Origin: Micromonospora sp. NBC_01699 | GTDB taxonomy: Bacteria > Actinomycetota > Actinomycetes > Mycobacteriales > Micromonosporaceae | Assembly: GCF_036250065.1 (NCBI RefSeq) | Contig: NZ_CP109199.1 | Coordinates: forward strand, 2,232,001 to 2,296,000 | Length of the DNA: 64,000 bases | Reading direction: 5' to 3' | Part shown: in pieces, positions 31,763-59,394 of the stretch | Layout: each line of letters begins with the position of its first letter | Position numbering within the stretch: position 1 is the stretch's first letter | Program-made: the position numbers and the translations under genes | The notes under the pieces: model-generated | What the model was told of the DNA's origin: nothing | Database searches by the model: none | Seen by the model: the letters and a program-made list of their open reading frames with translations, nothing else

Positions 31763-32068
31763 GTGACCGGTCTGTCGACAGTGGAAGACCTTCGTACCCG
31801 TGGTGACAGCGACGACCTGACCGCCGTGCACCGCAACGACCAACGGTGGCGCTGCGTCGACTGCCACGGCGAATGGCCGTGCCCGGTCATCCGGCGTCGC
31901 CTGCTCGTGCTCTACCGGCGGGAACCGGCCAGACTGCGCATCTACCTACGCCACTTCCACGACCGGGCCATGCTGGAGCTGCCCGAGTTGTCGACCCGAC
32001 AGCTCGACGCCCGCTTCTTCGGCTGGATCCCCGACCCGAACGCCGGTCGACGGCGGCGACCGACCTGA
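31763..32068 (+). CDS. Small WPC-motif protein, first of two paralogues
   Basis: A 101-aa protein with an N-terminal polar part and the motif WRCVDCHGEWPCPVIRRRLL, then a charged helix and LDARFFGWIPDP. The gene at 56220-56501 has the same layout: WRC-x-D-xxx-EWPC-x-V/F-x-RRR, then a helical region and ETRFIGWVHDP. Such small proteins recur in Micromonosporaceae and are sometimes labelled flavin reductase, without evidence that I know of. GGGAGG precedes the GTG. The paired Cys of WRCVDC and WPC may bind metal. Confidence 0.7.
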   Translation: MTGLSTVEDLRTRGDSDDLTAVHRNDQRWRCVDCHGEWPCPVIRRRLLVLYRREPARLRIYLRHFHDRAMLELPELSTRQLDARFFGWIPDPNAGRRRRPT

Positions 32069-56095: not shown

Positions 56096-56139
56096 TCGTA
56101 CACCATCTTTGACGTACGCACACAAAAGATGGTGTACGA
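56096..56139. terminator. AT-rich hairpin between convergent gene groups
   Basis: Perfect 15-bp arms (TCGTACACCATCTTT) with a 14-base loop, followed by AACTAAAA on the plus strand. It lies between the secreted protein gene and the mini-gene operon that comes from the other side, and could be a bidirectional terminator. Confidence 0.55.
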
Positions 56140-56219
56140 ACTAAAAGCATGAGTTTCCCTGGCGGCGCCCTGCTGCCCACCCGGCCACAGTTGGTAGTGC
56201 CTCGTCGGCCAATTTGCGG

Positions 56220-56501
56220 TCAGATCGCCCGTAGTCGGCGGCGGACCGGTGGGTCGTGGACCCAGCCGATGAAGCGGGTTTCGGCCTGTTCGGGGGTCAG
56301 GTCGGGCAGGGTCGCTGTTGCCTTGTCGCGGAAGCCGCCCATCACTTCGGCGAGTCGGGGCCGGTTTCCCTGGTAGAGGGACCACATGCGGCGGCGGAAG
56401 ACCTGGCAGGGCCATTCCTCGTTGTCGTCCTTGCACCGCCAGTCGTCGCCCGGCCGGTGCGGGGCGCCCTTCGGGTCGCCGTCGTCGGGGTCGTGTTCCA
56501 C
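56220..56501 (-). CDS. Small WPC-motif protein, second paralogue (mini-gene 9)
   Basis: A 93-aa last gene of the mini-gene operon. WRCKDDNEEWPCQVFRRRMW and ETRFIGWVHDP align with the protein at 31763-32068, with a similar helical middle. GGAGGAACC precedes the GTG. Only the Cys of the WRC and WPC are kept here (the WRCVDC of the paralogue becomes WRCKDD). Confidence 0.75.
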   Translation of the reverse strand: MEHDPDDGDPKGAPHRPGDDWRCKDDNEEWPCQVFRRRMWSLYQGNRPRLAEVMGGFRDKATATLPDLTPEQAETRFIGWVHDPPVRRRLRAI

Positions 56502-56512
56502 GGTTCCTCCGT

Positions 56513-56740
56513 TCAGAGCAGGTGGACCCGCTCGGTGCTGCCGTCGGGGTTCCGCACCGTGAGGCTTCCCTCGCCTTGTTCCGTCAGGTGGAGGACCAGG
56601 TCGAAGGCGACCAGTGCCCGGTTGATCGTGTCGGTCTTCGTGTCCCGTGACCGGGCGCACGCCGAGGTGAGTGCGTCGACCGCGCGGGGCATCAGGTTGA
56701 CTGTGATCTTCGTGAGCGTCGACCGGTCCGGGTCAGCCAC
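56513..56740 (-). CDS. Ribbon-helix-helix-like small protein (mini-gene 8)
   Basis: A 75-aa protein whose first part (LTKITVNLMPRAVDALTSAC) has the beta-strand/helix/helix pattern of ribbon-helix-helix DNA-binding proteins. A strand-rich tail (LTVRNPDGSTERVHLL) follows. It may bind DNA, for example regulating this operon. The GTG start overlaps the previous stop by eight bases. Confidence 0.7.
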   Translation of the reverse strand: MADPDRSTLTKITVNLMPRAVDALTSACARSRDTKTDTINRALVAFDLVLHLTEQGEGSLTVRNPDGSTERVHLL

Positions 56741-56951
56741 GACGACGCTTGCCGATCTCGATCATGGGTATCGTCGGGGCGGGTGGTCGGGTCTTGCGCG
56801 TCCAGCATGGGCAGGAGCATGGTGCCCACGGCAGCCATGACTTCGACCCCGGCTTGACCCAACCCCCGCACCGGTCGCACTTCCTGTTGTCGCTGCCGCA
56901 GTTCATGCACAGCGGCCCGTCCGCCGCCGGGGTAGGCGGCTCGTCCGTCAC
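56733..56951 (-). CDS. Cys-rich zinc-ribbon-like small protein (mini-gene 7)
   Basis: A 72-aa protein with CMNCGSDNRKCDRCGGW, two CxxC pairs typical of a zinc ribbon, and a further CSCPC near the end. The GTG has GGAGG upstream and overlaps the preceding TGA by four bases. The frame of the C-terminal half is less certain, as another frame also reads well from about 56850. Confidence 0.6.
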   Translation of the reverse strand: MTDEPPTPAADGPLCMNCGSDNRKCDRCGGWVKPGSKSWLPWAPCSCPCWTRKTRPPAPTIPMIEIGKRRRG

Positions 56952-57127
56952 CGGGCCTCCAGTGGCACCGGTGCCATTGTTTGGCGTTCGCGTTGGGCCC
57001 AGGCCAACTGCTCGCACCCATCCGCCCGACACTGCGGACACCGCCGACCATTGACATGACCCCGAAGCGTCATCCCGGCGGCCCACCAGATACCGGCCCT
57101 CGTCAACGGCTCATCCTGCCTACTCAC
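56948..57127 (-). CDS. Cys-containing mini-protein (mini-gene 6)
   Basis: A 59-aa frame (VSRQDEPLTRAGIWWAAGMTL..., then NGRRCPQCRADGCEQLAW). CPQC-x4-C suggests metal binding. Its GTG overlaps the previous stop, and its stop overlaps the next GTG, both by four bases (GTGA). Confidence 0.6.
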   Translation of the reverse strand: MSRQDEPLTRAGIWWAAGMTLRGHVNGRRCPQCRADGCEQLAWAQRERQTMAPVPLEAR

Positions 57128-57333
57128 AATTCACCTTCCTCTGCACCGTTCTGCGTACCGGTGCACACGTCCCGCGCGAGAGCCTGAAGAAACTCGATCG
57201 CACGATCCATATACGGGCACCCGTACTGGGTACAATGGAGGCAGACCGGCCGCCAGAGGCGCGAATTACGGTGCCGCATAACCTCACTCCGAGCGATCCA
57301 CTTCAACGTCTCAATACTCAATTCCCCACCCAT
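57124..57333 (-). CDS. Cys-containing small protein (mini-gene 5)
   Basis: A 69-aa protein. VCLHCTQYGCPYMDRAIEFL has a C-x2-C-x4-C pattern followed by a helix with a further Cys (ARDVCTG). The ATG shares one base with the preceding TGA (TGATG). The function is unknown; the pattern recalls small metal-binding proteins. Confidence 0.6.
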   Translation of the reverse strand: MGGELSIETLKWIARSEVMRHRNSRLWRPVCLHCTQYGCPYMDRAIEFLQALARDVCTGTQNGAEEGEL

Positions 57334-57422
57334 CAGTCACACGACGGGATTCCGCCGGACGCGCCCGGCCCCTCACCGGAGATCTCCGGAGCGGCGGTCG
57401 GGTTCGTCTCGTCATCGCTCAC
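57333..57422 (-). CDS. 29-codon mini-gene (mini-gene 4)
   Basis: The frame reads VSDDETNPTAAPEISGEGPG and ends SCD. It is acidic and probably disordered. The GTG overlaps the stop of mini-gene 3 (GTGA) and its stop overlaps the next ATG. It is supported mainly by these overlaps. Confidence 0.4.
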   Translation of the reverse strand: MSDDETNPTAAPEISGEGPGASGGIPSCD

Positions 57423-57493
57423 AGATGCGCCTCCATCTCGAACAGCCGGGTGAACATCGCGCAGCAGGCGCGGCAGTACGCAGGGACCGGCAC
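57419..57493 (-). CDS. 24-codon Cys-containing mini-gene (mini-gene 3)
   Basis: The frame from GTG 57493 reads PAYCRACCAMFTRLFEMEAHL, with a CxxCC motif and about 92% G or C at third positions, unlike the other frames here. It lies in the same frame as the preceding gene, separated by a TGA at 57503 and three codons. It could be a remnant of a longer gene or a genuine micro-protein. Confidence 0.4.
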   Translation of the reverse strand: MPVPAYCRACCAMFTRLFEMEAHL

Positions 57494-57502
57494 ATCGTCG
57501 CG

Positions 57503-57823
57503 TCATGACCACCGACTCGGGTCGCTCGCGGTCGGACACCGCACACACCCGAACGGACACGGAGGCCGGTGGTAACCCGGAAGCGCAGTGGTCCGCACGA
57601 CACCAACCCAACCCGCCACCCGCTCACCGTCCGGACCCAGCTCCACCCCCACCAGGGCAACCCAATCCGTACGACCCAAGTCCACGTCAACGGGGTAGTG
57701 CGTCACCCGCAGACGCAGGTCCTGCCAACCCTCGGGCCACTCGAACGGCCCATGACCGAGCAGGTACGACGTCGGATCGATCGTGAACACGTCACCGACC
57801 TTGACCAACGGCTCATCGGGCAT
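57503..57823 (-). CDS. Small hypothetical protein (mini-gene 2), 106 aa
   Basis: A soluble protein with VFTIDPTSYLLGHGPFEWPEGWQDLRLRV and DWVALVGVELGPDGERVAGWVG, probably beta-rich, and a Cys-containing tail (CPFGCVRCP). The start is an ATG with GGGGG upstream; it overlaps the stop of mini-gene 1 by 11 bases. Confidence 0.65.
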   Translation of the reverse strand: MPDEPLVKVGDVFTIDPTSYLLGHGPFEWPEGWQDLRLRVTHYPVDVDLGRTDWVALVGVELGPDGERVAGWVGVVRTTALPGYHRPPCPFGCVRCPTASDPSRWS

Positions 57824-58022
57824 GCCGGCCCCCGTTGCGGGGCACGCGGTGGTCCGTGCGCTGCCCGAACATGAGCAGCGGCCCCAGGTTCATCGTCGGC
57901 GCGTCGGCTCGCGCCGGGCGGGCCAGTGGAGGCGGAGCAGCGGGTGGGACGGGCGGTTGCGCTTCGGTGCTTTCGAGGGCCCAGGGCCATAGGCGGCTTC
58001 GCCATCGGCGGTAGTCGAACAT
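57813..58022 (-). CDS. Small hypothetical protein (mini-gene 1), 69 aa
   Basis: First gene of the operon. It begins MFDYRRWRSRLWPWALE, basic and Trp-rich, then a Pro/Ala-rich linker and a basic tail. GAGGAGA lies upstream of the ATG. It is divergent from the XRE/DUF5753 gene at 58270; the 247-bp spacer should hold the promoters for both directions. Confidence 0.6.
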   Translation of the reverse strand: MFDYRRWRSRLWPWALESTEAQPPVPPAAPPPLARPARADAPTMNLGPLLMFGQRTDHRVPRNGGRHAR

Positions 58023-58269
58023 CGCATCTCCTCAGTGTTGAAAGCGGAGCAGCCCGGCTGGGAGTCCGGGGTAGCCCCGCGCAGTCCCGCCCGTCCCTGT
58101 GGATGTGGGCGACATCCGATGGGTGTGAATTCGAGCGGAACTGCTTAGTGACAGTCTGATGAGGACTGCACTACCGTCGATAGAGGTGCGCAGGGTCTGT
58201 GCAGGTCAGGGCCTGATCGAGCAATCGAGCGCAACGGGACGGAACACGCGAGCAACGGATGGGGAATCG

Positions 58270-59067
58270 ATGAGCGAATTGATCGAATATGTCCTGGAGG
58301 AGCTGCGCTTGGCGCGCACCGATCGCGACATGAGTCAGGAGGAATTCGGGAAAGCTATCGGATACTCCGGGTCACATGTCAGCTCCGTCGAGACCGGCCA
58401 GCGTCCGCCGACGCCTCCGTACGTCGATAAGATCGATGAGGTGTTCAAGACCGGCGGTAGGTACGCGCGGATGATGCGCAGGCTGGCGAAGCTCGAACTC
58501 TCCCCAACCTGGCTGCGGCAGTGGATTGAGTACGAGGCAGCCGCACTCACGCTTCGCTGGTACGAGGCAACCTGTGTACCAGGACTTATGCAGACCGAGG
58601 CGTACGCGCGGGCAACGTTGGCGGGCGGGCGGTTCACTCCGGAGGAAGTCAGCCAGGCGGTGGCGTCCCGACTGGACCGACAGAAGATTCTGGAGCGCGA
58701 GACGCCACCTCAACTGAACGTGATCATCGATGAGCAAATCATCCATCGACCGGTGCTCGATCGGCCGGGATTGATGCTGGCTCAGTGCGAGCGAATTATC
58801 GAACTGGGGGAGCTTGACCATGTTCAGGTTGGGCTAGTACCGGCCGACGCGGGAATGTACATCGGGATGTCCGGACAGTTCATCATCGCCGAGCTGCCCG
58901 ATGGGCGGCGGGTCGCGCATGCGGACAACCAGCTCCGCGCACAGATCGTTGATGATGCTAGTGATGTTGCTAGGCTGGCCCAGACGTGGGAGATAGTCCG
59001 GAATCACACCCTCCCAGGTCGGCAATCACTCCAGCGGATCAAGGAAGTGGCAAAGACATGGACGTGA
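58270..59067 (+). CDS. XRE-family regulator with DUF5753 domain
   Basis: A 265-aa protein with the HTH MSQEEFGKAIGYSGSHVSSVETG at the N-terminus and the C-terminal DUF5753 domain (ATCVPGLMQTEAYARATL, RPGLMLAQCERIIELGELDHV). Such proteins in actinomycetes occur next to DUF397 genes, sometimes in developmental or antibiotic-regulation loci. The ATG at 58270 has GGGGA nearby; the upstream frame back to 58159 is not protein-like. It is divergent from the mini-gene operon, which it may control. Confidence 0.92.
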   Translation: MSELIEYVLEELRLARTDRDMSQEEFGKAIGYSGSHVSSVETGQRPPTPPYVDKIDEVFKTGGRYARMMRRLAKLELSPTWLRQWIEYEAAALTLRWYEATCVPGLMQTEAYARATLAGGRFTPEEVSQAVASRLDRQKILERETPPQLNVIIDEQIIHRPVLDRPGLMLAQCERIIELGELDHVQVGLVPADAGMYIGMSGQFIIAELPDGRRVAHADNQLRAQIVDDASDVARLAQTWEIVRNHTLPGRQSLQRIKEVAKTWT

Positions 59068-59249
59068 CCGGCGCCAACTGGCGGAAGTCGACCAAGTCCA
59101 GCGGCAACGGCGGGTCGTGTGTGGAGGTAGCCGACAACCTCCCCGGGCGCGTCTTCGTGCGGGACACCAAGGACCGTGACGGCGGCACCCTGGCCTTCGG
59201 ACCGAGCGCGTGGCGGGCGTTCGTCAACCTCGCCAAGCACCACCACTAG
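59058..59249 (+). CDS. DUF397 protein
   Basis: A 63-aa DUF397 protein, ANWRKSTKSSGNGGSCVEVAD then VFVRDTKDRDGGTLAFGPSAWRAFV, complete for the family. It overlaps the XRE/DUF5753 stop by ten bases. The pair is typical of actinobacteria and sometimes behaves like a toxin-antitoxin-like regulator pair. Confidence 0.92.
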   Translation: MDVTGANWRKSTKSSGNGGSCVEVADNLPGRVFVRDTKDRDGGTLAFGPSAWRAFVNLAKHHH

Positions 59250-59394
59250 CAAACCTCGCACCGCCCCCGTGACCGGACCGGCGCGGGGGCGGCGCTGTGT
59301 CCGGGCCGGGGCGACGACGCTGGGCATCGCCTACGCCGAGAGCCCCGTCACCGTCGCGCTGGGCGCCGCCCGCGACCCTGACCGGTCGGGCCGG

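Follow-up and report, generated by a model that had tools for sequence, protein, structure and literature searches.

A WhiJ/BldB-type regulator pair divergent from an operon of miniature genes for putative zinc-knuckle and ribbon-helix-helix-like proteins in Micromonospora sp. NBC_01699

Organisation of the locus

The window analysed here is a stretch of 64,000 nucleotides of the Micromonospora sp. NBC_01699 chromosome (contig NZ_CP109199.1, positions 2,232,001 to 2,296,000), and coordinates given without a locus name are positions within it. A first-pass annotation, made from the sequence alone, had described about nine overlapping miniature genes on the minus strand at 56220–58022, divergent from an XRE/DUF5753-DUF397 gene pair. 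All nine frames were present, with the lengths and overlaps first reported. The operon of miniature genes is real, with seven intact genes instead of nine, and the locus contains the following features:

56096–56139, no strand assigned: 15-bp perfect inverted repeat that resembles a terminator, lying between convergent genes at the left border of the module
56220–56501, minus strand: o9, 93-aa WPC-motif protein
56513–56740, minus strand: o8, 75-aa ribbon-helix-helix (RHH)-like protein
56733–56951, minus strand: o7, 72-aa Cys-rich protein (CMNC...CDRC...CSCPC)
56948–57127, minus strand: o6, 59-aa zinc-knuckle-like protein
57124–57333, minus strand: o5, 69-aa zinc-knuckle-like protein
57333–57422, minus strand: o4 remnant, 29-codon frameshifted relic of a 64-aa gene
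57419–57493, minus strand: 24-codon 'CRACC' frame, a chance frame
57503–57823, minus strand: o2, 106-aa protein, strongly conserved
57813–58022, minus strand: o1, 69-aa Pro-rich protein, first gene of the operon
58044–58080, minus strand: hairpin in the 5′ leader of the operon, about 20 nt upstream of the first start codon
58133–58179, plus strand: spacer motif shared with other loci
58270–59067, plus strand: XRE-family regulator with DUF5753, WhiJ type
59058–59249, plus strand: DUF397 protein, BldB/Scr2 type, overlapping the end of the XRE gene

The identity of the divergent pair was confirmed by profile matches. The XRE regulator matched PF13560 (7e-12) and PF19054 (5e-47), both over the cut-off, and the product of the overlapping gene matched PF04149 (1e-20). 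As judged from its sequence, the pair belongs to the WhiJ/BldB type: an XRE helix-turn-helix is combined with DUF5753, a DUF397 gene adjoins it and there are many paralogues in the genome, where a profile search gave 55 DUF397 matches. In PADLOC the DUF397 protein had no match and the XRE protein had generic HTH matches only. The operon and the XRE gene are separated by a spacer of 247 bp (58023–58269).

Coding status of the operon frames

The frames were compared with 33 paralogous loci of the same chromosome, dN/dS being taken from six close copies (five for o7). This revealed purifying selection on the six frames of 106 (o2), 69 (o5), 59 (o6), 72 (o7), 75 (o8) and 93 (o9) codons. The dN/dS values were 0.17 for o2, 0.12 for o5, 0.29 for o6, 0.20 (up to 0.31) for o7, 0.27 for o8 and 0.29 for o9, and third positions took 45–73% of the changes between close copies, an excess in all six genes. 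The frame of the gene itself was open in all six copies for o2, o6, o8 and o9, in five for o5 and in four for o7. The +1 frame was open in none of the six copies of any of these genes and the +2 frame was sometimes open, in up to four copies (o9) and in two (o7); for o2, both other sense frames were closed in all copies. Broken frames or a lack of third-position conservation, which the first-pass annotation had named as the mark of chance frames, were not what was found for these six best-supported genes (dN/dS 0.12–0.29). Comparison between paralogues can prove frames even as tiny and overlapping as these.

The first gene, o1, had homologues and a conserved ribosome-binding site at 10 loci. 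Its frame was open in 6/6 close copies with a dN/dS of 0.54, and it is probably a gene under relaxed constraint, with weaker support than the other six.

The two shortest frames did not hold as genes. The paralogues do not keep the 24-codon frame as a unit, since there it enters the next gene or stops elsewhere, and all sense frames of this region were open in nearly all copies; its reading as a gene for a zinc protein with a CRACC Cys pair was rejected, as coding support was lacking. The 29-codon frame was found to be a broken gene. In the window the starts of o4 and o5 are 89 nt apart, compared to 198 nt in loci L030 and L032, and this loss of 109 nt shifted the frame and removed the conserved C-terminal motif of intact o4, P-x-E-x-F-[AS]-[VI]-G-[VM]-S-G-R-x-R. 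Among the copies read, the deletion is common to the window and L028 only, and full-length o4 was encoded by L029–L032, L034, L036, L041, L042, L045, L093 and other loci. In the 121 genomes of the bacterial family, o4 was detected in its own genus alone, save for one marginal partial match in another genus.

Intact o4-type genes were also seen in other arrangements. At L093 (1127–1816) one is directly divergent from a DUF397 frame with no XRE gene between them, and at L043, L045, L054 and L055 an XRE gene of about 400 aa has a small o4-type gene immediately in front of it and is followed by o9. The XRE protein of this size at L045 is NsdA/TPR-like.

Predicted small proteins

Searches with the small proteins gave nothing above the cut-off in Pfam or NCBIfam, nothing credible in PADLOC or PHROGs and nothing significant in a PDB sequence search, and neither Pfam nor NCBIfam revealed an enzymatic domain in the operon. 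The locus adds several protein families that are missing from the profile libraries searched.

Two of these families, o5 and o6, carry an invariant H-C-C-C ligand set. In o5 this set is H21, C31, C34 and C39 (15 copies) and in o6 it is H24, C30, C33 and C38 (20–21 copies in the genome). The o5 (CLHC) and o6 (CPQC) proteins are homologous to each other (hhalign E=5e-5, probability 67%). Proteins like o6 were found in 25/121 genomes of the family, representing 9/44 genera. In the nine contigs C2–C10 of G128, which belongs to another genus, the same o6-like frame occurred with an identical score, which may reflect a dispersed repeat or an assembly effect. The Cys-rich o7 had seven alignable copies, and that of L034 has a 96-nt deletion.

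The last gene of the operon, o9, does encode a WPC-motif protein, as first proposed, and aligned with CxxC-WPC relatives (about 24 copies). Like other actinobacterial WPC small proteins, it has the H..C..[C/D]..WPC pattern, a helical part and RF-G-W. It differs from them in being encoded within an operon and in its ligands (H15, C23, D26 and C32): the relatives carry C-x2-C-x5-C, whereas in o9 the second Cys is replaced by Asp (D26), so that the set is H-C-C with C or D at the fourth position. A single-sequence structure model of o9 was of low confidence (57.2). Homology of o9 to o5 and o6 was considered and rejected, as the profile comparison gave no support and only the ligand pattern is similar. 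Small proteins with the WPC motif in actinobacteria are often annotated as 'flavin reductase'. A lone 101-aa CVDC-EWPC protein of the o9 family is encoded elsewhere in the window (31763–32068, plus strand), where no XRE or DUF397 gene was recognised in nearby ORFs.

On these ligand patterns, o5, o6 and o9 are putative zinc-knuckle proteins that probably bind zinc. At least four zinc-ribbon-like proteins with Cys pairs had been proposed for the operon; several proteins do have Cys pairs, which are invariant in the 59- and 69-aa families, and the CRACC frame has to be dropped from the set.

The protein first described as looking like a ribbon-helix-helix protein, o8 (about 24 copies), has the beta-alpha-alpha order expected of that class (E11–15, H18–29, H35–53) in a single-sequence model of low confidence (pLDDT 58.5), and we retain the description RHH-like. 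It would share with CopG/Arc-like proteins this predicted pattern and a helix 2 that starts T-K-T-D-T-I-N-R-A-L. It differs in a predicted additional C-terminal beta-hairpin and in the lack of a profile match, as no RHH profile of Pfam or NCBIfam and no PDB sequence matched o8. The nearest named relatives, with 60–63% identity, are from Plantactinospora endophytica and P. alkalitolerans, and solo relatives occur in Streptomyces, Amycolatopsis and others.

The intergenic spacer and the operon leader

The shared motif of the spacer consists of the palindrome GAGCGGAACTGCT (58133–58145) followed by a -35/-10-like pair for the XRE gene, GTGACA-N18-TACCGT (58148–58177). The palindrome is imperfect (GAGCGG-N2-CNGCT). 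A search of the 8.28-Mb chromosome with the pattern RTGACANYCTGN13TACNNTCG gave 7 matches, compared to 0 for the reversed-pattern control, and all seven lay at spacers that separate small genes like those of the operon from an XRE or DUF397 gene (at L047 the XRE-like match is weak). By its sequence the motif is promoter/operator-like, and it could be a plain promoter. It was missing from several loci with more distant XREs, and a gapless scan of all loci found a 20-nt candidate operator in part of them only, so that it is specific to one XRE clade. The WhiJ9-type tandem repeats CGNNCTCAAC were not found in 58023–58269, where there were two scattered one-mismatch matches only; the specificity would thus differ from that of WhiJ9.

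The leader hairpin showed covariation. In the five alignable leaders, 5/14 pairs were changed on both sides and 90% of cells pair, and sliding the partner by one column reduced the pairing to 47–50%. Similarly placed hairpins, with different arms, were found in most loci. Rfam gave no credible match.

Copies across the chromosome and module history

A DNA search of the 8.28-Mb chromosome revealed related DNA at about 25 further places, the closest seven with 80–96% identity. In profile searches, the WPC family (o9) had 28 places, the RHH-like family (o8) 26 and the CPQC family (o6) 21, the weakest of which are fragments. Grouping the places of o4, o6, o8 and o9 resulted in 33 cassette loci. 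A DUF397 gene lay within 5 kb of 19/33 of these, compared to a background of 5.4% of the genome within that distance of a DUF397 gene, and was absent within 5 kb at the other 14/33. At L044 the cassette is co-directional with the XRE gene. Divergent control is therefore not universal. Cassette genes also have other regulator partners, namely large XREs (L043, L045, L054 and L055) and a DUF6879-XRE pair (L044). At L041 (2948–4176) a large XRE-type regulator gene seems to be split into two frames. The divergent arrangement of an o6-like gene and an XRE-DUF397 pair recurs in another genus (L120).

In a congeneric genome (G002) the flanks of the locus were kept at 86% identity, with 45 bp in place of about 3.25 kb (56140 to 59394). 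As the whole module is missing at this site, the regulator pair and the operon come and go together. The inverted repeat at 56096–56139 was retained in G002, where it shows compensatory changes although the module is missing, and about 12 related places were found in the Micromonospora sp. NBC_01699 genome. None of the ORFs inspected next to the module was recognised as an integrase or transposase gene.

Within the chromosome, the two halves of the module differed in their conservation. Over all loci, the XREs had a mean identity of 36% compared to 59–83% for o5–o9. The cassette DNA of the window and that of L028 were 92% identical and their XREs 30%, which indicates that the regulator and effector halves have been reassorted. 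XRE and o5 distances are nevertheless correlated (Mantel r 0.61), so this exchange has not been unlimited.

Comparison with WhiJ/BldB loci and a possible role

The loci most like this one are iosA-whiJ9-bldB9 of Streptomyces venezuelae and the abaA-whiJ-bldB loci, which also combine an XRE gene, a DUF397 gene and one or more small-protein genes across a regulatory spacer, in many paralogous copies. In S. venezuelae, the XRE protein WhiJ9 binds repeats in the iosA-whiJ9 spacer and activates iosA, under restraint by BldB, the loss of which raises the activation to >750-fold; BldB, a DUF397 protein, forms oligomers with its paralogues and shows no DNA binding (PMC10294661). The iosA and abaA genes occupy the same slot at whiJ-bldB loci, with abaA present at 5/10 paralogue loci and iosA not being an abaA paralogue (PMC10294661). 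The operon described here lies in the slot that iosA has in Streptomyces venezuelae. It differs in that the iosA and abaA loci have one target gene (for IosA, of about 15 kDa, or for AbaA, with HATPase_c), whereas here there is a seven-gene knuckle/RHH operon. The WhiJ9-type tandem repeats absent here are specific to WhiJ9 and not family-wide. There is no abaA (HATPase_c) neighbour, nor any Pfam match in the operon, and such a neighbour is not strictly defining for the WhiJ/BldB type. The same order of XRE-DUF5753 then DUF397 is seen in Scr1/Scr2 (SCO4441/SCO4442) and 14 further S. coelicolor pairs. In the accessible part of their description, these are pairs affecting antibiotics and differentiation, and no small-gene cassette is reported there. 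The view that the locus matches no known system thus stands insofar as no described system fits the whole, although the WhiJ/BldB/iosA precedent explains part of it; in our reading this is a known regulator pair with a new type of effector for a WhiJ/BldB-type switch.

With moderate confidence, we favour a WhiJ/BldB-type switch of XRE-DUF5753 and DUF397 proteins, the output of which would be the divergent operon, encoding small proteins mostly of the zinc-knuckle and RHH-like kinds. Regulation, binding, the direction of control and the function of the small proteins are what we infer here. The XRE protein would bind the palindrome of the 247-bp spacer, next to its own promoter, limiting its own expression and turning the divergent operon on or off, and the DUF397 protein would bind the XRE protein and set its activity. 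Expression of the small proteins may be coupled through the leader hairpin and the overlap or close spacing of their genes, and the proteins may then work together on transcription or development, the RHH-like one acting on DNA with the knuckle proteins as partners. As the small proteins of the roughly 33 cassettes are nearly interchangeable and the XREs very different, different inputs probably converge on a common output. Few actinobacterial regulator families have expanded as much as the XRE-DUF397 (WhiJ/BldB) pairs, for which few outputs have been named (IosA and AbaA). With some 33 copies in a single genome, a conserved multi-gene output of this new kind would make a rule linking regulator and output testable by comparison and simple deletions.

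Presence or absence as one unit, together with the many paralogous copies, would also be expected of a selfish, toxin-antitoxin-like mobile module, in which the XRE protein is antitoxin or repressor, the DUF397 protein or a small protein is the toxin and the module persists by addiction. XRE-DUF397 has been predicted to be a type II toxin-antitoxin pair that has expanded in Salinispora and also occurs on plasmids (PMC2701414), and RHH proteins are common antitoxins. We consider this reading unlikely: DUF397 overexpression was not toxic in S. coelicolor, where 14 XRE-DUF397 pairs behave as regulators and not as toxins (PMC10364602), and dispensability at orthologous sites is equally expected of regulatory duplicates. 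The failure to recognise an integrase or transposase in the inspected ORFs likewise argues against it, as do the lack of PADLOC matches to the small proteins, the lack of phage relatives and the finding of only four weak plasmid matches, all for o8. A phage or plasmid origin of the cassette was rejected on the last two of these grounds. The gain and loss, the diversification in many copies and the divergent regulators are also features of defence loci, and about 4% of VMAP ternary conflict systems have a linked DUF397 gene (PMC7159879). A cassette against phage or stress, with a knuckle/RHH sensor or effector complex and diversified XREs answering different attackers, is nevertheless very improbable, given that PADLOC found none of the small proteins and gave the XRE protein a generic HTH match only, that the operon lacks a recognised enzymatic domain and that the small proteins matched nothing credible in PHROGs and o6 and o9 had no viral relative.

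Signs of decay were found in the family, namely the o4 broken in both the window and L028, the deletion in o7 at L034 and the split regulator gene at L041. They would fit neutral debris of an expanded, decaying paralogue family with no present function at the window locus. The constraint on most parts of the module, seen as dN/dS of 0.12–0.29 on six genes and as the compensated leader hairpin, makes this explanation quite unlikely. As a highly speculative extension, to which we give little credence, the 64-aa product of intact o4 might be a peptide ligand of the regulators, in an RRNPP-like actinobacterial circuit, within a genus-wide, dispersed and recombining XRE/DUF397 network, comprising dozens of diverse sensors, that drives one shared zinc-knuckle/RHH miniprotein complex. 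The C-terminal o4 motif has been retained close to the spacer in many intact copies, and elsewhere it immediately precedes large XREs. As the window copy is without an intact o4, the module here may be partly decayed.
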